From assembly GCF_000213055.1 (NCBI RefSeq), contig NZ_CM001165.1, positions 2,503,445-2,567,444 of the forward strand: 64,000 nt of DNA, written 5' to 3'. Numbering within the stretch: position 1 is the first letter of the stretch; each line of letters begins with the position of its first letter. A model generated the notes under the pieces. The model was given only the letters and a program-made list of their open reading frames with translations, made no database searches and was not told where the DNA came from. The translations under genes were made by a program, and so were the position numbers. Shown in pieces: positions 6,876 to 64,000 of this stretch. The stretch is from Streptomyces sp. Tu6071. Lineage in GTDB: Bacteria > Actinomycetota > Actinomycetes > Streptomycetales > Streptomycetaceae.

Positions 6876-7508
6876 TCAGCCCTCCCGCCCCTCCCCCGGC
6901 TCCCGTCCCGGCCGGTCCGCGCGGCCCCTGCCGCGCGCCGCGCAGGCCACGAGGTGGTCGTCGACGAGTCCGCACGCCTGCATGAGCGCGTACGCCGTCG
7001 TGGGGCCGACGAAGCGGACGCCCTCCTTCTTGAGGCCCTTCGCGAGCGCGGTGGACTCCTCGGTGACGGCGGGCACGTCGGCGGTCGTGCGCGGGGCGGG
7101 GCGGCTGCCGGGGGCGGGGGCGAAGGACCAGAGGTACGTGGTCAGTTCGCCGGGCGCCCAGCCGGCGAGGAGGCGGGCGTTGGCGAGGACGGCGTCGATC
7201 TTGCGGGCGTTGCGGATGATCCCGGCGTCGGCGAGGAGGCGGGCGCGCTCGGCGGGCCCGTAGGCGGCGACGGCGGTCAGCTTGAAGTCGTCGAACGCGG
7301 TGCGGAAGGCGGGCCTGCGGCGCAGGATCGTGAGCCAGGAGAGCCCGGACTGGAAGGCTTCGAGGCTCAGCCGCTCGAAGAGCGCGTCGTCGCCGAGGAC
7401 CGGCCTGCCCCACTCCTCGTCGTGGTAGCCGAGGTAGTCGGGGGCGCTCAGGCCCCAGGGGCAGCGGAGTCTGCCGTCGGGGCCCGGGAGCGCGCCGGTC
7501 GCGGTCAC
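6876..7508 (-). CDS. tagA: DNA-3-methyladenine glycosylase I
   Basis: Base-excision repair enzyme that removes 3-methyladenine from DNA. The 210-residue product shows the family landmarks: RCPWG near residue 15, YHDEEWGRP (about 27-35), LFERLSLEAFQSGLSWLTIL (about 43-62), FVGPTTAYALMQACGLVDDH near the C-terminus. The trailing segment after the last motif is short and Arg/Gly-rich. It starts at GTG 7508, which overlaps the stop of the upstream DivIVA-domain gene (GTGA), so the two are translationally coupled. The same pair (Rv1209-Rv1210) is found in M. tuberculosis, as I recall it. Also called tag or alkA-type in some annotations; it is the TagI family, not AlkA. Confidence 0.93.
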   Translation of the reverse strand: MTATGALPGPDGRLRCPWGLSAPDYLGYHDEEWGRPVLGDDALFERLSLEAFQSGLSWLTILRRRPAFRTAFDDFKLTAVAAYGPAERARLLADAGIIRNARKIDAVLANARLLAGWAPGELTTYLWSFAPAPGSRPAPRTTADVPAVTEESTALAKGLKKEGVRFVGPTTAYALMQACGLVDDHLVACAARGRGRADRPGREPGEGREG

Positions 7509-7837
7509 GGCCGCTCGCCCTCCTCGGCGATCCGCGCGGGGCGGCTCGCGAGCGCCGACTCCAGGTCGGCGATGCGGGCCTCGCGTTCGGCGAGTTCGGC
7601 GGCGAGGCGGGCGAGGGCCTCGTCGACGTCGCCCATGCGGTAGCCGCGCAGGGTCTGCGGGAAGCGGAGCGCCTCGATGTCGGCGCGGCGCACGGGCCGG
7701 TCGGCGGGGAGCGGGTCGGTGAGCCGCTCGGGCGGGGCCTCGGGCAGGGCGGCGCCCTCGCCGTGGCCGAGCACGGCGAGCGTGACGGCGCCGACCACCA
7801 CGACCAGCGCGATGACCAGGAACCAGAACATCAGCAT
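7505..7837 (-). CDS. Membrane-anchored DivIVA-domain protein
   Basis: A 110-residue protein with one N-terminal membrane helix (MFWFLVIALVVVVGAVTLAVL, residues 3-23), a short Pro-rich linker, then a DivIVA-like segment (ADIEALRFPQTLRGYRMGDVDEALARL, about 60-86) running into a coiled coil (AAELAEREARIADLESAL). DivIVA domains bind curved membranes and organise polar growth; the FPxxLRGYxxxxVD pattern is the family signature. The ATG at 7837 gives the helix directly and follows ggggaag. Conserved upstream of tagA in actinobacteria and coupled to it by a 4-bp overlap, though no functional link between repair enzyme and membrane protein is known to me. Confidence 0.85.
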   Translation of the reverse strand: MLMFWFLVIALVVVVGAVTLAVLGHGEGAALPEAPPERLTDPLPADRPVRRADIEALRFPQTLRGYRMGDVDEALARLAAELAEREARIADLESALASRPARIAEEGERP

Positions 7838-8022
7838 GCGTCTTCCCCAAGTCCCCGGGCGCGGTCCCCGCCCGGTGCTCTTCTCGTACGGCCCGCCCGA
7901 CGACCGGTGCCGCGTGGCCACGATCGTGCCACGTCCGGGCGCGGGCTAGGGTCGCAGGCGGCCCGGGAGCCGTGATCACGGGTGACTGCTTGGGGCCTTC
8001 GGCCCGGAAGGGAAGCGCTGGG

Positions 8023-8883
8023 ATGTTGCGTCTGGGCCGCAGGGAGTTCGGCGAGCACGAGCCGGTGATCATGGCGATCGTGAACCGGACCCCGGATTCC
8101 TTCTACGACCAGGGGGCGACCTTCGCCGACGAGCCCGCCCTCACGCGGGTCGAGCGGGCGGTCGCGGAGGGCGCGGCGATCATCGACGTCGGCGGGGTGA
8201 AGGCGGGGCCCGGCGAGGAGGTGAGCGCCGAGGAGGAGGTACGGCGCACGGCGGGCTTCGTCGCGGAGGTGCGGCGGCGCTTCCCCGAGGTCGTGATCAG
8301 CGTGGACACGTGGCGGCACGAGGTGGGCGAGGCGGTGTGCGCGGCGGGCGCGGACCTGATCAACGACGCGTGGGGCGGCGTGGACCCGAGGCTCGCGGAG
8401 GTCGCGGGGCGGTACGGGGCCGGGATCGTGTGCACGCACGCGGGCGGCGCCCGGCCCCGTACGAGGCCGCACCGCGTCGCGTACGAGGACGTCATGGCCG
8501 ACATCCTCCGGGTGACGACGGCCCTCGCGGAGCGCGCCGTCTCGCTCGGCGTCCCGCGCGAGTCGGTCCTCATCGACCCGGGCCACGACTTCGGCAAGAA
8601 CACCCGCCACTCCCTGGAGTCGACGCGCCGCCTCCCCGAGATGGCGGCGACGGGCTGGCCCGTCCTCGTCTCGCTCTCCAACAAGGACTTCGTGGGCGAG
8701 ACCCTGGACCGCCCGGTGAAGGAACGGCTCCTCGGCACGCTCGCGACGACAGCGGTCTCGGCGTGGCTCGGCGCGCGGGTCTACCGCGTCCACGAGGTCG
8801 CGGAGACCCGCCAGATCCTCGACATGGTCGCGTCGATCGCGGGGTGGCGCGAACCGGCGGTCGCGCGGCGGGGGCTGGCCTGA
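8023..8883 (+). CDS. folP2: FolP2-type dihydropteroate synthase paralogue
   Basis: TIM-barrel protein of the dihydropteroate synthase family, 286 residues. The pterin-side motif is intact (MAIVNRTPDSFYDQGATF, about 16-33), and ISVDTWR and LIDPGHDFGKN are present. However the second family motif, normally DVGGESTRPG, reads DVGGVKAGPG (about 57-66), losing the Ser-Thr-Arg loop that binds p-aminobenzoate in true FolP. This matches mycobacterial FolP2, including the RGLA C-terminus, as I recall it. FolP2 from mycobacteria was reported to lack synthase activity, so the folate role is doubtful. The ATG at 8023 was chosen over the upstream frame opening at 7972 because the family starts there. It is divergent from the DivIVA gene. 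Confidence 0.9.
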   Translation: MLRLGRREFGEHEPVIMAIVNRTPDSFYDQGATFADEPALTRVERAVAEGAAIIDVGGVKAGPGEEVSAEEEVRRTAGFVAEVRRRFPEVVISVDTWRHEVGEAVCAAGADLINDAWGGVDPRLAEVAGRYGAGIVCTHAGGARPRTRPHRVAYEDVMADILRVTTALAERAVSLGVPRESVLIDPGHDFGKNTRHSLESTRRLPEMAATGWPVLVSLSNKDFVGETLDRPVKERLLGTLATTAVSAWLGARVYRVHEVAETRQILDMVASIAGWREPAVARRGLA

Positions 8884-50970: not shown

Positions 50971-51109
50971 GACGGCCACCGTACGAGTTCGGCAGGGAAA
51001 CTTGCAAACTTACTTGTCGATCGCGAGGCAGGGAAAGGGTACGTGCGAGGGGGGTGAGCGCTCACTCACCTCTGGATACCCTTGCTCTCGCCCGTCACGA
51101 AACCTAGGA

Positions 51110-51123
51110 TGAATGCGCTTTCA
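51110..51123. promoter_or_regulatory. LacI-type operator upstream of the LacI gene
   Basis: The 14-mer TGAATGCGCTTTCA matches the general LacI/GalR consensus TGNAANCGNTTNCA with one mismatch (T at position 5). It lies 33 bp before the chosen GTG start (51157), where autoregulation would act. An almost identical 14-mer (12 of 14 bases, the two differences symmetric) lies at 61127-61140 upstream of the sugar ABC operon. Confidence 0.7.
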
Positions 51124-51156
51124 TTCGGTGTGGACAGAACAGGCGATGGTGCTGCT

Positions 51157-52263
51157 GTGAGCGACACTCCCACGGTCTACGACGTGGCGGAGCAGTCGGG
51201 CGTGTCCATCGCCACCGTCTCCCGCGTCTACCGCAGTCCGGATTCCGTACGTCCCGCGACGCGCGAGAAGGTGCTCGCGGCGGCCCGCGCCCTCGGCTAC
51301 GTGCCGAGCGGCAGCGCGCGCGGACTCGCGAGCCGCACCACCGGCATCATCGGCCTGTGCTTCCCCGACTACGCCGACCCGGACGCGGACTCCGGAGCAG
51401 GTGAGGGCGACGAGGAGGCGGGCACCCTCTACTCGGACCAGATCATCAGGGGCATGGAGCGCGCGGCCCGCCGCCACGGGTACGCGCTGCTCATCGCCGC
51501 CTCGCTGGCGGGCGGACCGGAGAGCCTGGTGGCGAAGGTCGCGGGGCGCGTGGACGGGTTCGCCGTGCTCGCGCGGACGGTGCCGACCGAGGACCTGGAG
51601 GTCATCTCGCGGCGCGTGCCCGTCGTGATGCTCGCGGGCCCGCGCGAGATAGACCACATGGACCACATCGAGGTCGCGAACCGCGACGGCGAGTACCAGC
51701 TCACGCGCCACCTCCTCGCGGACCACGGCCTGCGCCGCCTCGCCTTCATCGGCAGCGCCGACGAGTCGCCCGACGTGGGCGCCCGCTTCGAGGGCTACCG
51801 CGACGCGCTGCGCGAGGCGCGCCTGCCCGTACCCGAGGCACCGGACCTGCGCGCCCCGCTGATGACCCGCGCCGAGGGCTCCCGCGCGACACGCGCCCTC
51901 CTCGACCGCCCGGGACCGCGCCCCGAGGCGCTCGTCTTCGCGAACGACCAGATGGCGGTCGGCGCCCTGCACACGCTGGAGGAGGCGGGGGTACGGGTCC
52001 CGGAGGACGTCGCCGTGACCGGCTTCGACGGCATCCCGCTGAGCCGTGTCGTGCGCCCCCCGCTCACCACGGTCCGCCAGCCGATGCGCCGCATGGGCGA
52101 GGAGGCGGCCGAACTCCTCATCCAGCGCGTCACGGAGCCCCAGCGCACCCCGCCGGTCTCCCGGGTCCTGCCCGTCGAGGTGACCCGCCGGGGAAGCTGC
52201 GGCTGCGGCGAGCCTTCCGGGGGCGGCGCTTCCGGAGCGGCGCTTCCGGGCGCTGAAGGCTGA
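51157..52263 (+). CDS. LacI-family transcriptional regulator
   Basis: A 368-residue repressor. N-terminal HTH TVYDVAEQSGVSIATVSRVYRSP at about 5-27 and the hinge RALGYVPSGSARGLAS; then the periplasmic-binding-protein fold (TTGIIGLCFPDY, DQIIRGMERAARRHGYALLIAAS, RPEALVFANDQMAVGALHTL, VAVTGFDGIPLSRVVRPPLTT). An acidic insertion near DADSGAGEGDEEAG is family-variable, and the tail is Gly/Cys-rich (GSCGCGEPSGG). GTG 51157 was chosen as start: the operator-like 14-mer at 51110 then falls upstream. The alternative ATG at 51109 would put the operator inside the gene. Probably sugar-responsive. Confidence 0.92.
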   Translation: MSDTPTVYDVAEQSGVSIATVSRVYRSPDSVRPATREKVLAAARALGYVPSGSARGLASRTTGIIGLCFPDYADPDADSGAGEGDEEAGTLYSDQIIRGMERAARRHGYALLIAASLAGGPESLVAKVAGRVDGFAVLARTVPTEDLEVISRRVPVVMLAGPREIDHMDHIEVANRDGEYQLTRHLLADHGLRRLAFIGSADESPDVGARFEGYRDALREARLPVPEAPDLRAPLMTRAEGSRATRALLDRPGPRPEALVFANDQMAVGALHTLEEAGVRVPEDVAVTGFDGIPLSRVVRPPLTTVRQPMRRMGEEAAELLIQRVTEPQRTPPVSRVLPVEVTRRGSCGCGEPSGGGASGAALPGAEG

Positions 52264-52376
52264 GGCGGCGGTACGGGGGCGACCGCCTTCGGCCGTACCC
52301 CCGCGCACACCTTGCCCGCACCTTCACGCGCGCCTTCGGCCGCTCCCCCGCGCACGCCCTGGACCGTCCGGCGGCC

Positions 52377-53357
52377 TCAGGCAAGCGGCGCGCTCGTCAG
52401 CGCGGCCGAGACCGTCCACAGGCGCTCGGCGAGCGCCGGGTCGAGCGCCCACTCCTTGACGCCGTGCGGGTGCTCGGCGAGGGCCGCGTCGTCCGGCACG
52501 GTGTACGCCTCCTGGCAGTCGTCGAGGTAGCGGCCCCCCGCCTGGGCGAGGGCGGGGAGGACGGCGGCGACCATCGTCGTCGCCGCGCCCTGGCCCACCG
52601 TCTTGTACGTGAAGACCCCCGCGGCCTCCGCCGCGTCGAGCGAGCGCCGCTGCCGCTGCGTGAAGTGCCGTTGCAGCCCGGTGGCGACGCCTCCCGGGTT
52701 GACGGTGTTGGCGACGATCCCGTCCCGCGCCCAGCGGCGCGTCGCCGCCACGGCGAAGAGCGAGTTGGCCGTCTTCGACCGCGCGTAGGCGAGCTGCGGG
52801 TCGTAGGGGCCGCGCGTGTGGTGGAGGTCGTCGAAATCGACCCCGGCCCGCATGTGGGCCGTCGAGCTGACCGCGACGACGCGGGCACCGCCGCGCTCGG
52901 CCGCTCCCCGGGCCAGCGCACCGTGCAGGCCCGTGGCCAGCGCGAAGTGCCCGAGGTGGTTGGTCGCGAACTGCCACTCCCAGCCCTCGCGGGTGCGGGA
53001 GAGGCCGCCCGTGACCACGCCCGCGTTGTTGATGAGGAGGTGGAGCGGTCCGCGCCACGCCGCGAGGAAGCGCGCGACCGAGGCCCGGTCGGCGAGGTCG
53101 AGCGGCGCGACGTCGGGGCGGGTTCGCCCGGTGGAGCGGGCGATCTCCCCGGCGACGGCGCTCCCCGCGTCCGCGTCGCGCACCGCGAGTGTGACGCGCG
53201 CCCCGGCGGCGGTGAGGGCACGGGCCGTCTCGGCCCCGATGCCGGAGGAAGCGCCGGTGACGAGCGCGCGGACGCCGCCGAGGTCGTGCCCGCGCAGCAC
53301 GTCGTCCGCCGTGCTGGCGGCGGTGAAGGAGGTCACGAGCCGTGGGTGCTGAGCCAT
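52377..53357 (-). CDS. Short-chain dehydrogenase/reductase (retinol dehydrogenase-like)
   Basis: A 326-residue SDR. NAD(P)-binding GASSGIG at about 36-42, LLINNAGVV at about 108-116, catalytic Ser in AVSSTAHM and the active-site Y-x3-K in AYARSKTANSL (Tyr about 193, Lys about 197), NPGGVATGL. Similar to bacterial SDRs of the retinol dehydrogenase/WW-domain oxidoreductase group. Divergent from a TetR regulator with 64 bp between start codons, so the TetR protein probably controls it. Substrate unknown. Confidence 0.9.
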   Translation of the reverse strand: MAQHPRLVTSFTAASTADDVLRGHDLGGVRALVTGASSGIGAETARALTAAGARVTLAVRDADAGSAVAGEIARSTGRTRPDVAPLDLADRASVARFLAAWRGPLHLLINNAGVVTGGLSRTREGWEWQFATNHLGHFALATGLHGALARGAAERGGARVVAVSSTAHMRAGVDFDDLHHTRGPYDPQLAYARSKTANSLFAVAATRRWARDGIVANTVNPGGVATGLQRHFTQRQRRSLDAAEAAGVFTYKTVGQGAATTMVAAVLPALAQAGGRYLDDCQEAYTVPDDAALAEHPHGVKEWALDPALAERLWTVSAALTSAPLA

Positions 53358-53421
53358 GCCCCCGAACTTTACACATGAGACTTGGTTTGTATAGCGCGTC
53401 TTGCTCTCGTAGGCTTCTCGC

Positions 53422-54045
53422 ATGAGCCGCGAGACCGAACCCCGTAGCGAGGCGGGCCCCCGGGAGAAGCCGGGCCCCCGGGACGAGCCAGGTGCCAGGG
53501 CCGATCCCGGTCCCGGTCGGCGGGGTGCCGTGCTGGACGCCGCGATGACCACGTTCGCGCGGTTCGGGTACCGGAAGACGTCGATGGCGGAGGTGGCCCG
53601 CGCGGCGGACATCTCGCGGCCGGGCCTCTACTTCCTCTTCTCCTCGAAGGAACTCCTGTTCCGCGCGGCGGTCGAACAGCTCCTGGAGCGCGATCTCGCG
53701 GCGGTGGAACGGGTCCTCTCCGATACCCGGCGCCCCCTCGCCGAGCGCCTCGCCACCGCCTTCGACCAGTGGGCGGGCCGCTACACGGAGCCGCCGGCAC
53801 GTGACATCCCGCAGGTCGTCGAGGCACATCCGGGCCTGCTCGGGGAGTGCGCGGAGCGGGCGCCGCGCCGCTTCGAGGAACTGGTCACGGCGGCACTGGC
53901 CGAGGGGCCGGACGCGGACGGACAGGACCCGGTGGGCATCGCGCGCACCCTGATCAGCACGTCGGTCGGCCTCAAGCACCAAGCCCCGTCGCACGCGTTC
54001 TACACCGAACGCCTCGCCCTCGCGATCCGGCTCCTGGTCCGCTGA
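53422..54045 (+). CDS. TetR-family transcriptional regulator
   Basis: A 207-residue repressor. A 30-residue polar leader is followed by the HTH at about 35-80 (AVLDAAMTTFARFGYRKTSMAEVARAADISRPGLYFLFSSKELLF is the span; key words are YRKTSMAEVAR and PGLYFLF). The C-terminal ligand domain is variable, here with FDQWAGRY and ISTSVGLKH. Divergently transcribed from the SDR gene; the 64-bp space between them (containing an AT-rich stretch ttacacatgag...tttgtata) would hold both promoters. The usual arrangement is that the TetR protein represses the SDR and itself. Confidence 0.9.
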   Translation: MSRETEPRSEAGPREKPGPRDEPGARADPGPGRRGAVLDAAMTTFARFGYRKTSMAEVARAADISRPGLYFLFSSKELLFRAAVEQLLERDLAAVERVLSDTRRPLAERLATAFDQWAGRYTEPPARDIPQVVEAHPGLLGECAERAPRRFEELVTAALAEGPDADGQDPVGIARTLISTSVGLKHQAPSHAFYTERLALAIRLLVR

Positions 54046-54128
54046 CCACGGACGGGCACGCCCCGGCCGACCGCTTCGGCACGGCGGCCCCGGCCGACCG
54101 CCTTGGCGCGCCTCTCCGCTCCGCCTCC

Positions 54129-54932
54129 TCACCCCTCCGTGGCGCGGCGCTCCCGCGCAAACCGCCCCGGGGTCGTGCCCAGGAAGCGGCGGAAGTGGCG
54201 GCTCAGGTGGGGCTGGTCGTAGAAGCCGGACTCCGTGGCGGCACGGGCCGCCGGGACGCCTTCCAGGAGGAGGCGGCGGGCACGGTCCAGGCGGCGGGCG
54301 GTCACGTACTGGTGCGGTGCGATGCCGAAGGCGCGCGTGAAGGCGCGGACGAGGTGGGTCTCGTCGGCGTGCAGGAGGCGGGCCGCCTCGGCGAGGCCCA
54401 GGGACGCGGGGAGGCGGGCGTCGAGCAGATCGCGCAGGTCGCGCGGCAACGACCGTGCGGGAGTGGGCTGTTCGGGCGTCGCGCGCAGGTGGCGGCGCAG
54501 CCGGTCCACGACCAGGGCCAGCCTGCTCTCCGCCTCCAACTCCTCGCCCGGGTGGGCCAGTACGGAGTGCAGGCGCCCCACGCGGTCGCGGAGGAGGGGA
54601 TCGGCGAGGTCAGGGGTGTCGGCGGCCGGGCCGGTCAAGTCCGTGCCCAGGCGGGTGAGATCGAGGTACAGGACGCGTTTGCGGAAGCCGCCGGGGCTCG
54701 CCGCCGAGCCGTTGTGCGGGACGTACGGGGGCAGCAGCGAGACGGTGTCCCGCGGGGTGCCGTGCGGGTGCCTGCCCAGGTCGTAGCGGACCGCGCCGTC
54801 GTCCACGATGAGCAGCGTCCACGCCTCGTGGACGTGCATCGGGTACGCGTGGTCCGTGAAGCGCGCGTGCAGCACCTCCGTCACCCCGGCGACGGCGGGC
54901 CGCCACGCCGAGATCTCGTGCCGGGTCGCCAT
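54129..54932 (-). CDS. AraC-family transcriptional regulator with cupin domain
   Basis: A 267-residue regulator: an N-terminal AraC_binding cupin (HVHEAWTLLIVDDGAVRYDLG about 33-53, with His in MHVHE), then two HTHs at about 165-260 (ASLGLAEAARLLHADETHLVRAFTRAFGIAPHQYVTARRLDRARRLL, FYDQPHLSRHFRRFLGTTPG). Divergent from a DUF2000 gene with about 60 bp between starts. In many genomes AraC regulators of this shape sit beside DUF2000 genes, which suggests that it controls it. Effector unknown. Confidence 0.91.
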   Translation of the reverse strand: MATRHEISAWRPAVAGVTEVLHARFTDHAYPMHVHEAWTLLIVDDGAVRYDLGRHPHGTPRDTVSLLPPYVPHNGSAASPGGFRKRVLYLDLTRLGTDLTGPAADTPDLADPLLRDRVGRLHSVLAHPGEELEAESRLALVVDRLRRHLRATPEQPTPARSLPRDLRDLLDARLPASLGLAEAARLLHADETHLVRAFTRAFGIAPHQYVTARRLDRARRLLLEGVPAARAATESGFYDQPHLSRHFRRFLGTTPGRFARERRATEG

Positions 54933-54994
54933 ACCCCGAACGTACGCCAGGAACGTACAAGAAAGCGCCCGGCCCCCACCGCGAGGCTGGCCCC

Positions 54995-55426
54995 ATGACC
55001 AGCACCGACGCCCCCGTCCGCTTCGACACCAAGATCGCCGTCCTGCTCCGCGACGACCTCGCCCCCTGGCAGCGGCTCAACGTGACCGCGTTCCTCGTCA
55101 GCGGCCTCGGCACCGAGGTCCCCGAGGTGATCGGCGAGCCGTACGCGGACGCCGACAGCACCCCGTACCTGCCGATGTTCCGGCAGCCCGTCCTCGTCCT
55201 CGAAGGCTCCGCCGCGCTGCTCACGACGGCCCACTCCCGCGCCCTCGCGCGCGCCCTGCCCCGCGCCGTCTTCACCGCCGACCTCTTCGCGACGGGCCAC
55301 GACGCGGCCAACCGCGCCGCCGTCCGCGCGGTCCCCGGCGCGGCCCTCGACCTCGTGGGGCTCGCGGTGTACGGCCCGAGGAACGCGGTGGACAAGACCT
55401 TGAAGGGGGCGCGGATGCACCCGTAA
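54995..55426 (+). CDS. DUF2000 family protein
   Basis: A 143-residue protein of the DUF2000 family: KIAVLLRDDLAPWQRLNVTAFLVSGL near the start, EVIGEPYADADSTPYLPMFRQPVLVLEG in the middle, and LVGLAVYGPRNAVDKTLKG at the end. The fold is a ferredoxin-like alpha/beta of peptidyl-tRNA-hydrolase-II-like type; no activity is established. Start ATG 54995, with ccgcgaggctggcccc before it. Divergent from the AraC gene, which probably regulates it. Confidence 0.88.
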   Translation: MTSTDAPVRFDTKIAVLLRDDLAPWQRLNVTAFLVSGLGTEVPEVIGEPYADADSTPYLPMFRQPVLVLEGSAALLTTAHSRALARALPRAVFTADLFATGHDAANRAAVRAVPGAALDLVGLAVYGPRNAVDKTLKGARMHP

Positions 55427-55727
55427 AGCGGTTGAATCGCGGCCTCGCGCGTGTCAGAGTGAACCGCTTTCGCGTGCGGGGGCGAGCAGTTCGCCCCCGC
55501 GCACCGCATCGCGGCGAGCAGCGCCCGGTGTCTCCGCAGTCGATGTCCCGAGGGAATGAAGTCCATGAGCACGGCGTCCGTCAGCGACCGCCGCGCGCAC
55601 TGAGGAAGGCTCCGCGCCTTCCGGCGGTGGTCCCACGTTCCGGCCTCCCACGGCCGTGCCTTGTCCTGCCCGCACGCGATTCCCGCGTGTCCGGGCGACC
55701 GTGCGACTCCCTCAAGGATTTCCCCAG
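55427..55727. other. Intergenic region, nothing recognised
   Basis: A 301-bp gap between the DUF2000 and GNAT genes, with mixed composition. Open frames across it are antisense or shadow frames. No terminator hairpin or promoter identified with confidence. Confidence 0.5.
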
Positions 55728-56546
55728 ATGACTTTCGTGGACCCCTCCACGTCCCCCGACGTCCCCTCCCCCGGGCTGCTCGTGCAGTCCGCGACCGCCG
55801 AGCAACTGCGGCGCAGGCCACGGGTGGTGGAGACGCCGGGCTTCGTCGCCGGATTCCAGGCCGACGACCCGAACCCGTATCTCAACTACGCGACCCCGCT
55901 GCCCGGCGCCGAGCCCTCCACCGCCGACGTCGCCGCCCTCGTGGAAGCCTTCCGTACAAGGGAGTTGATGCCCCGGCTCGAATTCGTCCCGGCGGCGGCG
56001 CCGGCCGTCGCGCCCGCGCTCCTCGCCGCCGGTTTCACCGTGGAGGCCGAGCACGACTTCCTGGTGTGCACACCGGAGACGTACACCCCGGCCGAGAACC
56101 GCCTCGTCACCCAATCCCCCGCCGATGACGAGGAGTTCGCCGCTCTCGATGCCGCGCTGAGCGCGTCCTTCGGCGGCCCGGGGACCGCGAGTCCCGAGGG
56201 GGTCGCGCGGTTGCGGCGGACGAGCGAGGGCGGGGGCGCGGTGCGGTACGTACGGGCCGCTGACGGGAGTTGCGCGGGCGGGGCGAGTTGCACGGCGCCC
56301 GCGCTCGGCACCGCCGAGCTGAGCGGGGTCGGCACGCGCCCCACGCACCGCCGCCGGGGCGTCGCCGCCGCCGTCGTCTCCGCGCTCACGGCCGACATGT
56401 TCGCGCGCGGCGCCGCCTCCGTCTGGCTGGAGTTCTCGGGAGACGACTCCCGCCGCGTCTACGAACGCCTGGGCTACCGCCCCCTGGGCACCCGCCTCTA
56501 CCTCCGCCTCGCTCCGGAGGACGGACCGGCGGGCGACAGGGGCTGA
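55728..56546 (+). CDS. GNAT-family N-acetyltransferase
   Basis: A 272-residue acetyltransferase with two GNAT-like halves. The first, degenerate half carries PRLEFVPAAAPAVAPALLAAGFTVEAEHDFLVC, and the second has the acetyl-CoA loop TRPTHRRRGVAAAVVSALTADMF at about 205-227 and VYERLGYRPLGTRLYL at the end. Start ATG 55728 follows aaggatttccccag. It is monocistronic. Substrate unknown. The upstream frame remains open but lacks family features. Confidence 0.88.
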   Translation: MTFVDPSTSPDVPSPGLLVQSATAEQLRRRPRVVETPGFVAGFQADDPNPYLNYATPLPGAEPSTADVAALVEAFRTRELMPRLEFVPAAAPAVAPALLAAGFTVEAEHDFLVCTPETYTPAENRLVTQSPADDEEFAALDAALSASFGGPGTASPEGVARLRRTSEGGGAVRYVRAADGSCAGGASCTAPALGTAELSGVGTRPTHRRRGVAAAVVSALTADMFARGAASVWLEFSGDDSRRVYERLGYRPLGTRLYLRLAPEDGPAGDRG

Positions 56547-57125
56547 GGACCGGGGACGGAGGTGACGCCCACGGACCACGGCGACGCTCCTCGCCGCGCA
56601 CCGGGCTCCTCGCAGCGCGTGTGGGCCGGAACGCCTCGCGCGCGGCGGGGGCCCGGGGGGTCCGCCTGTCCGGGGCGGGAATCCGTGGGGGTCACCGCCG
56701 TCCGGGGGGCGCACGGGGGCGGGTGCGACGCGGGCGCCGTGCCGCGCGCCGGAAAGCCGCGCGGGCGTGGCACGCCATCCGGCGCGACACCTCGCGCCGC
56801 CCCCTCGTGGCTGATCCGGCGACAAGGACGGCGACCATATCGGCGCCGCGCACCGTGATGCTCCGACGCCGGGCCGGGGGGACTGGGCGCACCCCTGGCC
56901 CCGGTGCGCATACGGCGCCACGTCTCCCCCGGGGGCACAGGGCCTGCGGCGGTGGGGCGCGGAGCACTCCGGCACGAGGACACCTCGTGTCGGCGGACGG
57001 GCGGTCCCCGTGGCCTCGCGCGGGGCCCGGTCACGGATGTGCTCGGCCGCCGAGGGGCGTGTGCGGGATGCCCGGATGTCGTGGTCGGCCACGGCGTTCG
57101 GGCGCCGGCCCTGTCGCAGCCGGTC
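56547..57125. other. Long gene-poor region, nothing recognised
   Basis: A 579-bp stretch with high GC on both strands but without consistent third-position bias in any frame. Several open frames cover it, all Arg/Gly/Pro-rich shadows with no homology I recognise. It may hold a decayed gene, but I found no surviving motif. Confidence 0.5.
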
Positions 57126-57851
57126 TCAGTCGCCGTCGTGTGCGAGTGCTCCGGGGCCGGTTGCGGGTGCGGGCAGTGCGGCAGCTCCGCCGGTCACGCA
57201 GACGGACGAGGACGCCGTCTCCAGGGCCCGGCGGTGGAGCGCGTCCAGCCCGCGGGGGCCCGAGGGGGCCGAGACGGCCCCGGTGGCGAGGAGCAGCTCG
57301 GCCTCGCATCCTCCGGGGAGGCTCCGCAGAAGCCGTGTCGCGCTGAGCTCCTGGAGGAGCCGTGTGGTCAGGCGGTCGAGCCGCGCGCGGAGCGCGGAGA
57401 GGTCCGGACGCGTCGCAGGAGTCCGCTCGGGGTGCGCCGTCCAGTACCGGAAGAGCCCTCGCTGCACCACCTTGCTCGCGGCGATCTGATCCCGGAAGAA
57501 GGCCACGGTCGCGTCCGGTTCCAGGCCGTGGGCCCCGGCCTTCTCCCGCACGTCGTCCAGCAGGTCTTCTTCCCGGACGCGGTCCTCGATCGGCGCGCCG
57601 GTGCCGAACTTCGACGCCGCCACCCGGTCCCCGGCCGAGAGCCGTTCCACGAGAAGCCCGGCCAGGGGACCGAGCGGAAGCGCGGCGGCTGTCGCGGCAC
57701 TCCCGGCCGGGACCACCACCGGATCACTGCCCGCAGCATGCGCCTGGGGCGCTCCGAGCGTGAGGGCCACGGCCAGGGCCGAGCCGGAGAACAGATGATG
57801 ACGGATTGCCGTACCGCGCTTCAGTGCTTCCCCCTGGTCGTGCCCCTGCAC
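57126..57851 (-). CDS. Secreted chorismate mutase (AroQ gamma type)
   Basis: Converts chorismate to prephenate; this is the exported all-helical type found in M. tuberculosis (*MtCM). Signal peptide LFSGSALAVALTLGAPQAHA, cleavage likely after AHA. Core signature: LVERLSAGDRVAASKFGTG, IEDRVREEDLLDDVREKA, FFRDQIAASKVVQRGLFRYW. Arg, Lys and Glu positions of the family active site are kept. The C-terminal cysteines (GGCEAELL and SSVCVTGG) allow one disulfide. The start is uncertain: the GTG at 57851 (241 residues) is used here; a CTG at 57827 (233 residues) gives a better-placed LKRGTAIRHH leader and follows ggggga. Why an exported enzyme would act on chorismate is not known. Confidence 0.85.
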   Translation of the reverse strand: MQGHDQGEALKRGTAIRHHLFSGSALAVALTLGAPQAHAAGSDPVVVPAGSAATAAALPLGPLAGLLVERLSAGDRVAASKFGTGAPIEDRVREEDLLDDVREKAGAHGLEPDATVAFFRDQIAASKVVQRGLFRYWTAHPERTPATRPDLSALRARLDRLTTRLLQELSATRLLRSLPGGCEAELLLATGAVSAPSGPRGLDALHRRALETASSSVCVTGGAAALPAPATGPGALAHDGD

Positions 57852-58631
57852 TCTTCCCCGGCCGGTGTGCGACCGCTCCCGGACGACCGGTGGCCCGTGC
57901 GGAACGCACCCCGCCGCCTGGCGGGAGGTCGCCGACCACCGCCGCGAAGCCGGGCACCACATACTCACCCCCCGCGCCGCTCCTGACGGCCGCGCGCCCT
58001 CTTTTCCCGGGCTGGGGACGCCCAGAAACACCCGCGAGGGTGACACGGACGAATCCGCGAGGGTGACACGGACGAATCCGGGCGGACGACCCGCCGCGGG
58101 CGGGCCGCGGCGGGAGCCCGGCCTGAGCATCCGCGACCCGCTCCGTCCTCCGGCGGTCGCCACCCCCCGCGACCACGCCGGATCAAGCACCTGTCCCCGG
58201 CAAGCGCACCCGGGTCGTCCACGGCACCCTCGTCGTGCTTCGGTCCGCCTTCGCCGCAATCCGCTGCCACGCGGCCTTCGCGACAAGATCCGGGGGTGCC
58301 GACGGTGTTCCCGACGGTCGGCCCACGGCGGTCCTCGACGTCGGGCGCCGGTCCCCCGACGCGAGGCCCGCGATCCGGCGGCCCGCGAGGCCCGTGGACG
58401 CGACCTGCCCTCGCGTGCCGCGCGGGACCGGACGCCTCGCTTCCGCCCGTATGCGTCATGCGGAACCTGTCCGCGGGCGCTGCGACAGCCTCGCTCGGAG
58501 GTATCGCAGGTACCCGTCCGCCGCCCGCGTCGCCCCTCGTGCCGACGTCTGCCGCGTCAGCCCGCCGACTCCGAGGCATTCGCAGTCGCACAGGGGGTAC
58601 TCTCCTGCCACCCGAGACGAGGAGCGCGCCG
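57852..58631. other. Long gene-poor region upstream of chorismate mutase and ATPase genes
   Basis: A 780-bp divergent interval with no supported gene. It contains a 23-bp tandem repeat at 58032-58077 and otherwise GC-rich sequence with no coding bias in a consistent frame. Divergent promoters for the chorismate mutase (leftward) and the ATP-binding protein (rightward) must lie here. I could not see clear promoter boxes. Confidence 0.5.
58032..58077. repeat. Perfect 23-bp tandem repeat upstream of chorismate mutase gene
   Basis: The 23-bp unit beginning ccgcgagggtgacacggacg is present at 58032-58054 and again at 58055-58077 without mismatch. It lies about 180-225 bp upstream of the chorismate mutase start. 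It could be an operator pair or a chance duplication. Confidence 0.85.
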
Positions 58632-58997
58632 GTGCTTTCCCTGGACTCCACCGAACTCACCGCCGCCGACGCGCGATTCCTGGCGCAGACCTACGCGGCC
58701 ACCCACTGCCCGCGCCTGGACCGCTCCGCCGTCGCCCTGGTCGTGGCCGAACTGCTCTCGAACGCCGAACGCCACACGGCCGGGACCTGGCGGCTGGCGA
58801 TCAGGCACAGCACGCGCCTGCTGAGCATCGCCGTCCACGACCTCGGCCGGCTGTCCCCGATGCCAGGTTCGTCAGCACTCGACGGCACAGGGCACTTCGG
58901 CCTGCACATCATCCGCCGCCTCAGCCATCACTTCGCCGTCCACACCGATGCCACCGGCAAGACCGTCACCGCGCAATGGAACCTCGCACTCCTCTGA
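58632..58997 (+). CDS. RsbW-like ATP-binding protein (HATPase_c_2)
   Basis: A 121-residue GHKL-type kinase/ATPase of the anti-sigma-like family, abundant in Streptomyces. N-box VAELLSNAERHT at about 37-48 with the metal-binding Asn, IAVHDLGRLSP at about 65-75, and the G-box GHFGLHIIRRLS at about 88-99. GTG 58632 follows gaggagcgcgcc. No partner anti-anti-sigma or sigma gene is nearby. Downstream, the reading frame continues right after the TGA with an unrelated coding stretch (see the next entry). Confidence 0.85.
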   Translation: MLSLDSTELTAADARFLAQTYAATHCPRLDRSAVALVVAELLSNAERHTAGTWRLAIRHSTRLLSIAVHDLGRLSPMPGSSALDGTGHFGLHIIRRLSHHFAVHTDATGKTVTAQWNLALL

Positions 58998-59234
58998 GTC
59001 ACCACGGGCGTCCGCCTCGGCGCGGGCAAGAAGATCCGCTTCGGCGTGTGGGACCCGCTCAACAAGAGCGGCGGCTCGGGCGTACGCATCACGGGCCTTG
59101 TCATCACCCCGCCGGACGAGACGGAATCCGTGACGCCGAAGTGGCCCGGTGGGGCCTCGCTCCCGGTCACGGACGACGACGGTCGCCGGGCCGAGGTGGG
59201 GTGGAGGGGCAGCGCGGCGCAGGGCGAGGGGTGA
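58998..59234 (+). pseudogene. Orphan 3' coding remnant in frame with the preceding ATPase gene
   Basis: After the ATPase stop TGA (58995-58997), the same frame continues for 78 codons without a stop: VTTGVRLGAGKKIRFGVWDPLNKSGGSGV (words: RLGAGKKIRFGVWDPLN, RITGLVITPP, TPKWPGGASLPV), ending in AQGEG and TGA. Third-position GC is near total, as in genuine genes. No start codon with ribosome binding site gives a plausible protein except a GTG at 59046. It looks like the C-terminus of a beta-rich secreted or lipoprotein whose 5' part was lost in a recombination at the ATPase gene end. Stop readthrough is a remote alternative. Confidence 0.65.
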
Positions 59235-59614
59235 ACCGGCACACCGGCGGCGCCCGGTGATCCGGAGCGCCGCCACCCGGGTCGGCAGGACGAGGTGAGC
59301 CGTTCACGAGGGCGTTGACCGCTTCGTCGGCTCTCTGCTCTCGCCGGGTTCGGTGAGCCCCGGCCGACAGCCGCGCGGCCGACGACGGCATGGCGAACGC
59401 GGACGCGGTTCCGCGCGGCCTCCGGGACTGCCGGGGGATGCGTGAAGCGAGGCGCGCCGGCCGGTGCCGTGCACAGGTGACGGTGACGTGCCGGATGATG
59501 CCCGCGCTGATCTCCACCGTCATCCGTGCGTCCACGGTGTGCGGGGGCCCTTCGGGGGCCGTGGGCGGTGCCGGTGTCGCCGCACGAGCCGCGCACCCTT
59601 TCCGAACCGCCCCG
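59235..59614. other. Intergenic region, nothing recognised
   Basis: A 380-bp stretch between the remnant and the CE7 esterase gene. Minus-strand open frames show a few protein-like words (for example REQRADEAVNALVNG) but no start, no ribosome binding site and no recognisable family, so they may be further debris from the same recombination. Nothing else seen. Confidence 0.45.
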
Positions 59615-60640
59615 CTAGCCCGGCATGTTGGCCGCGAAGAAGTCCGTGCGGGCCTGTGCCAGTGCCGTGCGGTCGGTCGGTTCCTCCGCGTAGGGGTGGT
59701 GGCCGGCCCGGAGCAGGAAGGGGTCACCCGCCGCCGGGAGGGCGTTGTGCACGGCGAACTGGCCCGGGGGCGGCACGGCGGGGTCGTAGAGCGCGGCGGC
59801 GACGAGGACCGGGACGCGGATCAGCGCCGCCGCGGTCGCCGCGTCGAAGTACGTGAGCACGTCGGTGACTTCGGGGTGCGCGGCGTGGTACTTCCGTACC
59901 GACTCGCCGCTCCCCACGCTCGGCAGCGTGAGCCGCAGCGGGTGGTTGCCGAAGGTCGGCACGGTGAGCTGGGCCGCGACGAAGCGCTCGTCCCACGGCA
60001 GCGCGAGCGCGCCGAGGCCGCCGCCGAGGCTCTCGCCGAGGTAGCCGAGGCGGGGTCCGGCGAGTGCGGGTAACAGCTCGACGAGCGCGCTCGCGGCGCA
60101 CCACAGGTCGGCGACGCACTCGCCGAGCACGGACGTCTCACGGCTCCCGATGCCGTGCAGCACATGGGCGTCCGCGTCGGCCGGGATGCCGTCGACGAGC
60201 CCGCGCGCGGGCAGCCCGCGCACGCACGGCAGGATCGCGGCGGACTGCCCGAGCGGCAGCGGCAGATCCGGCCCGGGGCGATCCCGGCCCCCGTACCCGT
60301 GCCCGATCACGAAGCCGTGCCGCACGGGCCCCTCGGTCGGCATCGCGAACCAGCCGCCGAGCCGCACCCCGCCGAGCGAGGTGTACGTGACGGAGCGGAT
60401 CACGAGCCCGTCGCGCTCGTCCTCGACGGGCCCCGGCTCGGGCTCCGTCGCGACCGCGCGCGCCCGCTCCCGCAGCCGCCCCCAGAACGCGCCGAAGTCG
60501 TCCGGCGCCGGGGGCGCGGGCACGGCGAGCAGGGCGGGCAGCTCGTAGCCGTACGTGGGATCGAAGCCGTACGGGCTCTCGCCCGGACCCCGCGAGGCCC
60601 CGCCCGGCCCCTGCGGCGGCGTGTCGTCTGCGTGCACCAT
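59615..60640 (-). CDS. Acetyl-xylan esterase-like hydrolase (carbohydrate esterase family 7)
   Basis: A 341-residue alpha/beta-hydrolase without signal peptide, therefore cytosolic. Nucleophile Ser in GYLGESLGGGLG (about residue 191), acid Asp in ALYDPAVPPPG and His in GHHPYAEE near the C-terminus, with the CE7 words PSVGSGESVRKYHA and YFDAATAAALIRVPVLV. CE7 enzymes remove acetyl groups from xylo-oligosaccharides and cephalosporin C. Start ATG 60640. It is divergent from the sugar ABC transporter operon, which suggests use on acetylated oligosaccharides after import (inference). Confidence 0.87.
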   Translation of the reverse strand: MVHADDTPPQGPGGASRGPGESPYGFDPTYGYELPALLAVPAPPAPDDFGAFWGRLRERARAVATEPEPGPVEDERDGLVIRSVTYTSLGGVRLGGWFAMPTEGPVRHGFVIGHGYGGRDRPGPDLPLPLGQSAAILPCVRGLPARGLVDGIPADADAHVLHGIGSRETSVLGECVADLWCAASALVELLPALAGPRLGYLGESLGGGLGALALPWDERFVAAQLTVPTFGNHPLRLTLPSVGSGESVRKYHAAHPEVTDVLTYFDAATAAALIRVPVLVAAALYDPAVPPPGQFAVHNALPAAGDPFLLRAGHHPYAEEPTDRTALAQARTDFFAANMPG

Positions 60641-61201
60641 GATTCCCGACCCTACGGCCTCCCACCAGGCCCAACGACTCGGTGGCCGCCCCACGGGTCA
60701 CGCGCCCGCCCGCCTCGGGCGCCTCGGGCTGGGAGCGCGCCTCCTGCCGATATCCGCCCCGCCGGAGGCGCGCCTCAGGCCGGAGCGCAGCTCCCGCCGC
60801 CATCCGCCCCGCCGGAACGCGCCTCCCGCCGCCCCGCGCCTCCCGCCCGAGCGCTCGTACCCCCTTGCCGACGCGCCCCTCCCGCCGAGGTAAGCCCCCC
60901 GGACCCGCCCCGCCCCCGCGCCCGAGGACCCCCGGGTCCCCCTCGCCCTCCCCATCCCCCGCCCCCAATCCAGCCGATGCGGGACAATTCATATGTTGTG
61001 AACGCAAGCCACGCCACCACCCCCCACCTCTGTTCGCCCCGCCCGCCCCACATCCCCTCCCCAGAACATCCACGAAGTGTGACGTAGACCCCCCTTGCGC
61101 CCGCCCCGCCTCTCACGCCACAGTGATGTATGCGCTTACAGACAGCGCATACATTCCCGCCGCTCGCACCGGTGAGGAACCCGCTCAAGGAGGAGCACGT
61201 C
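60641..61201. other. Divergent promoter region of the esterase and sugar ABC operon
   Basis: A 561-bp interval with no gene. The part up to about 60940 is a C/G-rich stretch with repeated cgccggagcgcgcctc-like words and no coding bias. The operator for the transporter operon lies near its right end. Promoter boxes for either gene could not be read with confidence. Confidence 0.6.
61126..61154. promoter_or_regulatory. Perfect 10-bp inverted repeat operator upstream of the sugar ABC operon
   Basis: Arms 61126-61135 (atgtatgcgc) and 61145-61154 (gcgcatacat) are perfect complements separated by 9 bases. The left part also contains a LacI-type 14-mer TGTATGCGCTTACA (61127-61140), matching the LacI consensus except position 5, and sharing 12 of 14 bases with the site at 51110-51123. 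It is 48 bp before the binding-protein start codon. Confidence 0.8.
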
Positions 61202-62476
61202 ATGAACCGCCCCGCGAGACTCCGCACCCGGAAGACCGTGCGGAACACCACGGTCGCCGCTGCCTCGATCGCCGCCATGGTCGTCATCGCCGCCTGCGGC
61301 GGCTCCGGCGGCGGGGGCGTCTCCGCCGACAAGAAGCAGACCCTCACGGTCTGGGGCATGGGCGCCGAGGGCGAGAAGCTCGCCGACATCGCCAAGACCT
61401 ACGAGAAGTCGCACCCGAACATCACCGTCAAGGTGACTCCGGTCGGCTGGGACGTCGCGCACCAGAAGCTCGTCTCCGCCGCCGCCGCGAGCAAGCTCCC
61501 CGACATCGCGCAGATGGGCGGGAGCTACATGGGCGAGTTCTCCGAGCTGGGCGTCCTGGAGCCGGTCGACACGAAGACCTTCCACGAGAAGGACTTCTTC
61601 CCGGCCTCCTGGAAGCAGGGCGTCGTGGACGACACGGCGTACGGCGTGCCGTGGTACGTCGACACGCGCGTCGTCTACTACCGCACGGACCTCGCCAAGA
61701 AGGCCGGGATCACCGAGGCGCCCAAGACGTGGAAGGACATGAAGGCCCTCGCCACCGCGTACCAGAAGCAGGCCGGTACGCGGTGGGGCCTCTCGATCCA
61801 GCCCTCCGGCACCGACACGGTGCAGAGCTTCTACCCCTTCCTGTACTCGGCGGGCGGCCAGATCGTCAGCGACGACGGCAAGAAGGCCGTCGTCAACAGC
61901 CCCGAGGCGGTCCGCGCGCTCACGGAGTACGGCACGTACTTCAGCAAGGGCCTCGCGAAGAAGAGCGTCACGCCCGGCTACGACGTGCTCAAGGACTTCG
62001 ACAGCGGCTCCGTGCCGATGTTCTTCTCCGGCCCCTGGCAGATCAGCTCGATCAACCAGACGCACCCGAACCTCAAGGGCAAGTGGGGCATCACGACGGT
62101 GCCGCGCGACGAGTCCGCGACCTCGATGGCCGGCGGCTCCTCGCTCGTCATCTCCAAGGACAGCGACCACAAGGCCGCCGCCACGGACTTCGTGAAGTAC
62201 CTGACGAGCGCCAAGGGCCAGACCGAGTTCTACAAGGCGAGCGGCGACCTCCCGGCCCGCACCTCCGCCTGGGACAGCGGCGAGCTCGCGACCGACAAGA
62301 ACCTCCAGACCTTCCGCACGCAGGTCGAGAACTCGAAGACCTCGCCCGCGCTCGCGAAGTGGTCGGAGATCTCCTCGAAGGTCGACGACGCGATCGAGCA
62401 GGTCACCCAGGGCAAGGCGAGCGCCAAGTCGGCCCTGGACAAGGCCCAGTCCGAGATCGAAAGCCTCCTGGGGTAA
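61202..62476 (+). CDS. Sugar ABC transporter substrate-binding lipoprotein
   Basis: A 424-residue family 1 extracellular solute-binding protein. Lipoprotein signal peptide (RKTVRNTTVAAASIAAMVV), lipobox IAA-Cys32, short Gly-rich linker. The mature protein starts LTVWGMGAEGEKLADIAKTYE; family words include TQLAQMGGSYMGEF-like QMGGSYMGEFSELG, WYVDTRVVYYRTDLAKKAG, KTWKDMKALA, and FFSGPWQISSI. The start ATG 61202 has aaggaggagcacgtc upstream. It is followed by two permeases, the first 7 bp downstream. The ATPase is not in the operon as seen, so it likely uses a shared MsiK-type ATPase, as in other Streptomyces sugar importers. Confidence 0.93.
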   Translation: MNRPARLRTRKTVRNTTVAAASIAAMVVIAACGGSGGGGVSADKKQTLTVWGMGAEGEKLADIAKTYEKSHPNITVKVTPVGWDVAHQKLVSAAAASKLPDIAQMGGSYMGEFSELGVLEPVDTKTFHEKDFFPASWKQGVVDDTAYGVPWYVDTRVVYYRTDLAKKAGITEAPKTWKDMKALATAYQKQAGTRWGLSIQPSGTDTVQSFYPFLYSAGGQIVSDDGKKAVVNSPEAVRALTEYGTYFSKGLAKKSVTPGYDVLKDFDSGSVPMFFSGPWQISSINQTHPNLKGKWGITTVPRDESATSMAGGSSLVISKDSDHKAAATDFVKYLTSAKGQTEFYKASGDLPARTSAWDSGELATDKNLQTFRTQVENSKTSPALAKWSEISSKVDDAIEQVTQGKASAKSALDKAQSEIESLLG

Positions 62477-62482
62477 GCGGTC

Positions 62483-63466
62483 ATGAGCAGCACGGCAGAC
62501 ACGGCCGCCCCGGCGGCCACGCAGGGCCCGCCCGCCCCCGCCTCGCGCGGGGGCCGGGGGGCCGGGCCCGCCCGCCGGGGCGGTTCGGTGCGCACGCACC
62601 ACCTGGCGGGCTGGCTCTTCTCCACCCCGTTCCTCGTCCTCTTCGCCGTCTTCATGGCGCTGCCGATCGTCGCGACGCTCCTCATGAGCTTCACCGACTT
62701 CGGCCTCGCCAACGTGACGCACCCCTTCGACGCGAAGTTCATCGGCCTCGACAACTACGTCAACCTCTTCCAGGACGACAAGTTCCTGAAGTCCCTGTTC
62801 AACACGGGGTACTTCGTGGTCGTCGGAGTGCCCGTCACGATCACCGCCGGGCTGCTCGTCGCGGTCCTGCTCAACAACGGCATCGACCGCGCGCGGACCT
62901 TCTTCCGGGTCGGTTTCTACGCGCCCGTCGTGACCACGATCGTCGCGGTGGCCGTCGTGTGGCGCTTCGTGCTCGATCCGAGCGACGGGCTCGTGGCCGG
63001 GCTCTTCGACGCGGTCGGGCTCACCTCGCCCGACTTCCTCGGCAACGAGCACCTCGCGATGCCGTCCATGATCGCGATGGCGGTGTGGCGCAACGTCGGC
63101 AACGTCATGGTGCTGCTCATCGCGGGCCTCCAGGCGATCCCGCAGGAAGTGCGCGAGGCCGCGAAGCTCGACGGCGCGGGCGCCTTCCAGGAGCTGCGCA
63201 GGATCACGGTCCCGCTCCTGCGCCCGACGCTGCTCTACTCGACCGTCATCACCACGATCGGCTTCCTCAACGTCTTCGAGGAACCCTTCGTGATGACGCA
63301 GGGCGGCCCCAACAACAGCACCCTCACCGTGTCGCTGGACATGTACAAGGAAGGCTTCAACTTCTTCCACATGGGCTACGCGAGCGCGATGGCGTACGTC
63401 CTCTTCATTGTGATCATGGCCATCACGGTGCTCCAGCTCCGACTGCTGAAGGACAACACGAAGTGA
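62483..63466 (+). CDS. Sugar ABC transporter permease (MalF-like)
   Basis: A 327-residue permease. A Pro/Gly/Arg-rich cytoplasmic N-terminus (about 45 residues) precedes the first helix (WLFSTPFLVLFAVFMALPIVATLLM). Six helices; the EAA-like coupling motif is EAAKLDGAGAFQELRRITVPLLRPT. Start ATG 62483 follows agcggtc. The stop overlaps the next permease start in a GTGA arrangement. Confidence 0.93.
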   Translation: MSSTADTAAPAATQGPPAPASRGGRGAGPARRGGSVRTHHLAGWLFSTPFLVLFAVFMALPIVATLLMSFTDFGLANVTHPFDAKFIGLDNYVNLFQDDKFLKSLFNTGYFVVVGVPVTITAGLLVAVLLNNGIDRARTFFRVGFYAPVVTTIVAVAVVWRFVLDPSDGLVAGLFDAVGLTSPDFLGNEHLAMPSMIAMAVWRNVGNVMVLLIAGLQAIPQEVREAAKLDGAGAFQELRRITVPLLRPTLLYSTVITTIGFLNVFEEPFVMTQGGPNNSTLTVSLDMYKEGFNFFHMGYASAMAYVLFIVIMAITVLQLRLLKDNTK

Positions 63467-64000
63467 GCGCCACGACACCGGCCCCGCGCCGTACCCCCAG
63501 CGACCCCGGAACGCACGCGACGAAGGCCCCGGGCCACGATCCCGGCCACGACGCGGGCCAGGACCCGGGACGCCCGCGCGTGCCGCGGACCCCGCTGAGC
63601 GAGCGGCTGCGCAAGCCCCTCACGTACGTCGCCCTCTCGATCGGCCTGCTGATCATGGCCGCGCCGTTCCTGTGGATGGCGCTCTCGGCCTTCAAGACCG
63701 ACGAGGAGCTGGGCGGTTCCAAGACCGTCTGGATTCCCTCGGAGTGGACGCTCGACCAGTTCCGCGCGCTGCTCGACAAGCTCGACCTGCCGCTGTACTT
63801 CATGAACTCCGTGGTTGTCGCGGTGCTCGTGACCGTCTGCAACCTGGTCTTCTGCTCGATGCTCGGCTACGCGCTCGCGAAGCTCGACTTCTTCGGCCGC
63901 AACAAGGTCTTCGCACTCGTGCTCGCCGCGCTCATGGTGCCGGGCAACCTGATGCTGCTGCCGATGTACGTGCTGATGAACAAGCTGGACCTGCTCGACA
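63463..64000 (+). CDS. Sugar ABC transporter permease (MalG-like), cut by window edge
   Basis: A partial permease starting at GTG 63463, in a 4-bp overlap with the preceding permease stop, and running off the right edge (179 codons visible). A Pro/His/Asp-rich leader with GHDPGHDAGQDPG repeats precedes the first helix (YVALSIGLLIMAAPFLWMALSAFKT), then LDLPLYFMNSVVVAVLVTVCN and the helix-3 region FALVLAALMVPGNLMLLPMYVLMN, which is typical of MalG-type permeases. The rest of the operon is outside the window. Confidence 0.9.
   Translation, partial: MSATTPAPRRTPSDPGTHATKAPGHDPGHDAGQDPGRPRVPRTPLSERLRKPLTYVALSIGLLIMAAPFLWMALSAFKTDEELGGSKTVWIPSEWTLDQFRALLDKLDLPLYFMNSVVVAVLVTVCNLVFCSMLGYALAKLDFFGRNKVFALVLAALMVPGNLMLLPMYVLMNKLDLLD

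Follow-up and report, generated by a model that had tools for sequence, protein, structure and literature searches.

A LacI-family protein as the probable autoregulated repressor of a sugar-uptake operon in Streptomyces sp. Tu6071, with a β-1,2-linked gluco-oligosaccharide as the most likely inducer

Local sugar regulons of the LacI family, in the available part of the survey by Ravcheev et al. (2014; PMC4052901), are characterized by even palindromic operators with a central CG, autoregulation and control of carbohydrate operons; for 110 operons that survey describes upstream sites that overlap, at a spacing of about 13 bp. The β-1,2-glucan cluster SGR_2422-2427 of Streptomyces griseus (Kumakura et al., 2025; PMC12369401, also available in part) contains ATP-binding cassette (ABC) transporter genes, glycoside hydrolase (GH) genes of families GH1 and GH193, and an acetyl esterase gene. 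SGR_2426 is a β-glucosidase specific for β-1,2-glucooligosaccharides. The same source describes the sophoro-oligosaccharide cluster Lin1839-1841 of Listeria innocua, with the GH94 phosphorylase Lin1839 (a feature of Listeria; no GH94 search was made here). LacI, regulator, repressor, transcription and SGR_2421 are not mentioned in the available portion of that text, where 'regulat' appears three times, for osmoregulated glucans and in the title of a reference. No description of how soil actinomycetes sense β-1,2-glucans, nor of such a regulator, was present in the literature found. The locus described here lies in a 64,000-nucleotide stretch of Streptomyces sp. Tu6071 (the window; positions 2,503,445-2,567,444 of a 7.36-Mb contig; genome of 7,506,727 bases, 2 contigs). 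It encodes a LacI-family protein (below, the LacI protein), very probably a local autoregulated repressor of a sugar ABC transporter operon in the same stretch, with a β-1,2-linked gluco-oligosaccharide as the most likely inducer. This reading is built on the sites themselves, on where they stand with respect to promoter-like sequences, on their conservation together, and on the genes that the operon contains in relatives.

Features of the regulator gene and the operon, numbered from the first base of the window, are as follows.
51082-51110, forward strand: predicted promoter of the LacI gene, TTGCTC (51082-51087), 17 bp, TAGGAT (51105-51110); a similar TTGCyC...CTAGG stands upstream of the LacI gene in most relatives shown.
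51110-51123, forward strand: putative single LacI-type operator of the LacI gene, TGAATGCGCTTTCA; TGAATGCGCTT[TA]CA lies upstream of the LacI gene in 79 of 80 loci.
51157-52263, forward strand: gene of the LacI-family regulator, start codon GTG at 51157 or GTG at 51130; PF00356 and PF13377 over cut-off.
61095-61124, forward strand: predicted promoter of the ABC operon, TTGCGC (61095-61100), 18 bp, CACAGT (61119-61124); conserved in relatives.
61127-61140, forward strand: putative main operator of the ABC operon, TGTATGCGCTTACA; before the sugar-binding protein (SBP) gene in 68 of 69 loci with that gene in reach, flipped in the 69th.
61140-61153, reverse strand: putative additional operator, TGTATGCGCTGTCT, weaker and overlapping the main one at a spacing of 13 bp; it departs from the pattern at 2 bases, and 106 of 109 occurrences retain its first nine bases in this arrangement.
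61202-62476, forward strand: SBP gene of the ABC transporter; PF01547; match to Lin1841, E 4.2e-64.
62483-63466, forward strand: ABC permease gene, MalF-like; PF00528.
63463-64000, forward strand: second ABC permease gene, MalG-like, running past the window end; a GH39 gene follows outside the window (L036:4980-6908).

Both 14-mers are present at 51110-51123 and 61127-61140, as the first-pass annotation had reported. They differ only at positions 3 (A/T) and 12 (T/A), symmetric about the central CG, which bears out the reported agreement at 12 of 14 bases; both have T at position 5 (T5), as read from the sequence. Each has the form of a LacI-type operator, an even palindrome with CG at 7-8 and six of seven symmetric pairs (those of the transporter site counted by inspection). 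Unlike the local LacI-family regulons in the available part of PMC4052901, sites of the window type have T5 on one side only, and what is conserved is therefore an asymmetric dyad. Overlap with the start point was considered as the reason for T5 and rejected, because the distance from T5 to the -10 box is not the same in the two promoters.

In the window, exact matches to TGWATGCGCTTWCA are confined to these two sites; with up to three mismatches, 7 matches were found against 2.37 expected (standard deviation 1.57), a count reached by 4 of 100 shuffles. The whole genome holds exactly two exact matches to TGNATGCGCTTNCA, the same two sites, and no third. Allowing one mismatch gave 13 rows, among them both exact sites and one place that counts twice, once per strand; the reversed control pattern gave 38, so that the one-mismatch matches show no excess that would indicate further operators in the genome. 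A wider regulon in this genome was considered and rejected: 10 one-mismatch places were checked with a crude gene finder, most of them inside predicted genes or without a clear gene. One such site (L003:1501-1514; G000:C1:552241-552254) lies between genes, about 130 bases upstream of a gene predicted to encode a secreted α-1,3-glucanase; the dyad fails at the last base pair of this site, which is not counted in the regulon.

The transporter site is double. Positions 61126-61154 form a perfect 11-bp inverted repeat, ATGTATGCGCT-TACAGAC-AGCGCATACAT, a longer element missed by the first-pass annotation; the sites at 61127-61140 and, on the opposite strand, 61140-61153 overlap by one base. The second half-site has the same arrangement in 106 of 109 operator occurrences, some genomes being included more than once; it lies on the other side in L168, has a 1-base variant in L133 and is missing in L128.

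The LacI-gene operator starts at the last T of TAGGAT, and the transporter operator two bases past CACAGT. The boxes before the LacI gene are presumably its promoter, assigned from the consensus. Transcription usually starts about 7 bases beyond the -10 box, so both operators, adjoining their -10 boxes, would cover the transcription start, the classical place of a repressor site. ATG at 51109, taken as the LacI start codon, would precede the expected transcription start.

Co-conservation was assessed in 150 genomes of the genus, the window's own included (LacI orthologue, at least 62% identity; SBP orthologue, E <= 1e-100), and in 80 loci kept of 217 relatives found; the two sets share 14 genomes. 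The LacI search in the 150 genomes gave 33, reduced to 32 by dropping G014 (48% identity). The 32 of 150 genomes with the LacI gene are precisely those with the SBP gene. Of these 32, 31 contain TGTATGCGCTTACA, and the remaining one (G034) has before the SBP gene a 1-base variant ending in G; 29 contain TGAATGCGCTTWCA. Neither sequence occurs in any of the other 118. In the 80-locus set, the single locus without the LacI-gene site, L200, is cut off by a contig end 79 bases ahead of the match; the single flipped transporter site belongs to L168, with divergent genes. In 9 of the 11 loci without an SBP gene in reach, the genome has one elsewhere, with the site directly upstream in all 9. The LacI-operon distance is about 1.8 Mb in G070, 27 kb in G021, 16 kb in G128 and about 11 kb in G160, with both sites kept in each; linkage alone therefore cannot explain the co-conservation. 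Four arrangements keep the sites: LacI gene before the operon and close, LacI gene far away, LacI gene behind the operon (L141, L157, L160) and divergent (L168). The comparison with related genomes that the first-pass annotation had suggested thus finds both operators in nearly all 32 genomes with both genes, including arrangements in which these are not neighbours. It had also named a LacI gene kept without the transporter site as counter-evidence; this is seen in 2 of 80 loci, and nearly all others keep both sites.

Conservation is concentrated in the sites. After thinning to less than 80% identity outside the site, mean identity of the 14-mer is 1.0 in 25 transporter regions and 0.987 in 68 LacI regions, against 0.617 and 0.461, respectively, elsewhere in the upstream regions. 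Loci entered the thinned set for having the site; 1 of 69 SBP loci and 2 of 80 LacI loci (no site or less than 70 bases of flank) were left out. A Fisher p of 2.6e-31 for site conservation ignores relatedness and is not used. The pattern, an operator in the regulator's own promoter and one before a single pathway operon, both conserved in relatives, is that of an autoregulated local regulon. Repression of itself and of the transporter by the LacI protein, as first proposed from the window, is well supported by comparison: unique exact sites, the same 32 of 150 genomes, sites kept. Streptomyces spiroverticillatus and Streptantibioticus silvisoli (L154, L192) have the LacI gene with its own operator; no SBP orthologue or second site was found in either genome.

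The protein has a helix-turn-helix (HTH) domain (PF00356, 57.0 bits, cut-off 27) and a periplasmic-binding-like sensor domain (PF13377, 131.4 bits, cut-off 26.5), as expected of the LacI family. Hinge-helix residues A54, R55, G56, L57 and A58 are invariant in 8 aligned orthologues; the minor-groove leucine is taken to correspond to LacI Leu56. Best named matches, with 95-97% identity, are in Streptomyces sp. NRRL F-5630, SPB074 and SID11385; among plasmids, no match to the protein reached 60% identity. LacI HTH matches in the own genome number 23, one below cut-off. The window gene is the sole one between 1.79 and 3.46 Mb of the chromosome contig, with no other within 0.7 Mb, and the only one to have a TG...CG...CA dyad with six of seven pairs (region scanned, from 400 bases upstream of the HTH start to 60 downstream of it). 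Another LacI paralogue as the controlling protein was considered and rejected; gene position and phyletic pattern favour the window's gene, despite a paralogue with an identical recognition motif (L033, below).

Residue 23, in the recognition helix, presumably corresponds to LacI Arg22, a base-contacting residue. It is Arg in 110 of 111 loci, with operators of the form TG...CA. The exception, G014, has Met23 and sites of the TCTAAGCGCTTAG type (TC...GA) before the same LacI and SBP genes in the same order. An Arthrobacter homologue (44.9% identity) has Phe23, with TTTATGCGCATAGA before the LacI gene and TCAATGCGCTTAGA and TCTATGCGCTTATA before the SBP gene (T[CT]...[GT]A type). T5 is common to the sites of this homologue and not to those of G014. 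The second LacI copy of G053 (43% identity), another homologue, has Arg23, and no dyad was found before its gene. A change at residue 23 is thus accompanied by a change at base 2, which is what recognition of the site by this protein would predict, though two cases are few.

Beyond the window the operon closes with the second permease gene and GH39. Most relatives carry GH1 in the slot behind the permease genes, frequently with a gene for a PF10091-type protein next. Among the 66 loci with the second permease gene in the forward direction, 43 have GH1 and GH193, 13 GH1 only, 6 GH39 and GH193, 1 GH39 only, 3 neither and 0 GH1 with GH39 (GH1 in 56, GH193 in 49); loci of the 150-genome sample likewise include none with both GH1 and GH39. 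The 13 loci with GH1 and without GH193 and the 3 with neither may be due partly to the 10-kb flank or to contig ends. The label GH193 for the PF10091-type protein follows the position of SGR_2427 in PMC12369401, not an enzyme-family search. The relatives' loci resemble SGR_2422-2427, as far as the available text describes it, in ABC genes, GH1, GH193 and acetyl esterase; unlike it, the window's lineage has GH39 for GH1, and GH193 was not found. In S. griseus itself (L162) the GH1 protein is identical over 405 residues to SGR_2426 (PDB 8kap), and the LacI gene and both operators are present. The operator, in the double-site arrangement, also precedes a GH3 gene in G034 and a GH35 gene in G160. 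The GH3 protein is homologous to Lin1840 (E 2.8e-156; other GH3 enzymes score higher), as the SBP is to Lin1841 of the same Listeria cluster (PMC12369401, in the part available). The GH35 protein has the β-1,2-glucosyltransferase 7vkw as its best solved match (E 1e-51); a GH35 enzyme with this activity is described in the available part of PMC8861115. Since GH1 is SGR_2426 in the S. griseus cluster and operators precede GH3 and GH35 genes, the LacI protein is most likely a regulator for β-1,2-glucan or sophoro-oligosaccharides.

Binding, repression and induction would then proceed as follows. The LacI protein (51157-52263) would act as local repressor of the sugar-uptake operon, comprising the SBP, two permeases and one glycoside hydrolase. 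In the absence of inducer it would occupy the single operator at 51110-51123, and so hold down its own production, as well as the overlapping pair at 61127-61153, where it would obstruct RNA polymerase at the operon start point. The inducer would most likely be a β-1,2-linked gluco-oligosaccharide (sophorose or longer) imported by the transporter.

Several points weigh against this. The counts are not independent, neighbouring clusters being inherited together. The LacI-gene site is missing in G145 and reads TGAATGCGCTTCCA in G047 and G105, and the G034 operator before the SBP gene is the variant mentioned. TGAATGCGCTTCCA also occurs in G063, which belongs to the 118 genomes lacking both genes. 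Two of the 11 genomes without an SBP gene in reach (G153, G158) keep the LacI gene and its own site, and neither an SBP (E <= 1e-80) nor its site was found in them. Paralogue L033 (1.57 Mb, own genome) shares the VSIATVSRV helix, and cross-binding is possible. As to the substrate, the best solved SBP match is 3uor (slightly above Lin1841), whose ligand is unstated. The own operon has GH39 in the GH1 slot, not the characterized GH1; a GH1 homologue (62%) lies far from the cluster, at 7.15 Mb (G000:C1:7151250-7152470; L212, about 7251-8471), without an exact site. GH193 was not found in the own genome by a search without positive control. A β-1,2-specific β-glucosidase together with a β-1,2-glucanase is found in the operon of relatives, not of this genome. 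The substrate could have shifted in the window's lineage.

Such a shift is the core of the leading alternative, considered rather unlikely, in which the LacI protein controls itself and the operon, and the sugar in this lineage is not a β-1,2-glucan, e.g. a β-xyloside processed by GH39 and deacetylated by the esterase. The ten best solved GH39 matches are named β-xylosidases, an AXE1-like esterase is divergent from the operon, and GH1 and GH193 genes are absent from this lineage's operon. However, GH39 occupies the GH1 slot beside GH193 in 6 of 7 GH39 loci of the 80-locus set and 4 of 5 of the 150-genome sample (G010 in both). The window SBP matches Lin1841 and is 62-70% identical to the SBP of 26 of 31 relatives (G010, 96%; four, 48-54%), most with GH1-type clusters.

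Two further explanations concern the sites. That the inverted repeat at 61126-61154 belongs to another regulator and resembles the LacI-gene site incidentally is suggested by its 11-bp arms, exceeding the 7-bp LacI half-site, and by a further conserved block upstream of the ABC promoter. But the 14-mer is kept where the order of halves is changed (L168) and where the second half is gone (L128). It, or a close form, is common to the LacI-gene, GH3 and GH35 promoters, tracks the LacI gene over the 150 genomes, and overlapping LacI-family sites at this spacing have precedent in the part of PMC4052901 cited above; the explanation is highly improbable. Scarcely credible is a view of both sites as functionless remnants of chance similarity and shared ancestry. 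The genes are neighbours in most loci, all are related by descent, and the transporter-site region is conserved past the 14-mer (best non-overlapping 14-base window 0.943, including the second half-site), yet the thinned sets retain the contrast between sites and surroundings given above. Control of itself and the operon by the LacI protein is preferred.

The regulon is ordinary in kind; its novelty lies in the probable substrate, the doubled transporter site, the additional members and the substitution of GH39 for GH1. A fuller proposal is tentative, somewhat more doubted than believed: an undescribed regulator of β-1,2-glucan use in Streptomyces (transporter, GH1 or GH39, GH193, in some species GH3/GH35), with GH39 in the GH1 slot as a new β-1,2-glucan-acting branch replacing the sophorose-specific GH1. 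β-1,2-Glucans are natural bacterial polymers. The operator may serve as a tag for β-1,2-glucan genes, already pointing to GH3 and GH35 outside the operon, and gene order directs attention to a branch of GH39 for which a new activity could be tested. With residue 23 and base 2 changing together, the regulators and their operators form a natural series for the study of LacI-family specificity. An in-silico RegPrecise entry for this regulator is possible.

Between the LacI gene and the operon lie the following.
52264-59614, no strand assigned: intervening genes (among them SDR, TetR, AraC, DUF2000, GNAT, ATPase-like), from family searches and blastn against G010.
59615-60640, reverse strand: CE7/AXE1-like acetyl esterase gene, divergent from the ABC operon; PF05448.

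The distance of 10 kb given in the first-pass annotation is correct for this genome and is not typical, the gap being less than 5 kb in 66 of 69 loci with both genes (median 1,478 bases). By blastn against G010, the closest genome compared, about 52.2-55.5 kb and about 56.5-59.6 kb are unmatched at this place (about 6.4 kb in two blocks, with SDR, TetR, AraC, DUF2000 and ATPase-like genes). The blocks were gained here or lost in G010 and account for most of the LacI-operon distance.

The esterase gene lies between the LacI and SBP genes in 49 of 65 loci in which LacI precedes SBP; 16 of 65 have none between. Its suggested control by the LacI protein is not supported: in G070 the esterase adjoins the LacI gene, the transporter and operator are 1.8 Mb away, and no operator was found near the esterase. 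The esterase is a common companion and is not placed in the regulon.

TGCATGCGCTTCCA and TGGATGCGCTTCCA recur in genomes of the genus mostly without this LacI gene (e.g. G095, G139, G024, G071, G098, G099, G020, G064). A block like GTTRC..GAGTGTGACC (window about 61065-61090), directly upstream of the ABC -35 box, is conserved in most relatives shown (e.g. L099-L126) and may be an activator site; it is also present in two relatives without the esterase (G053, G072).

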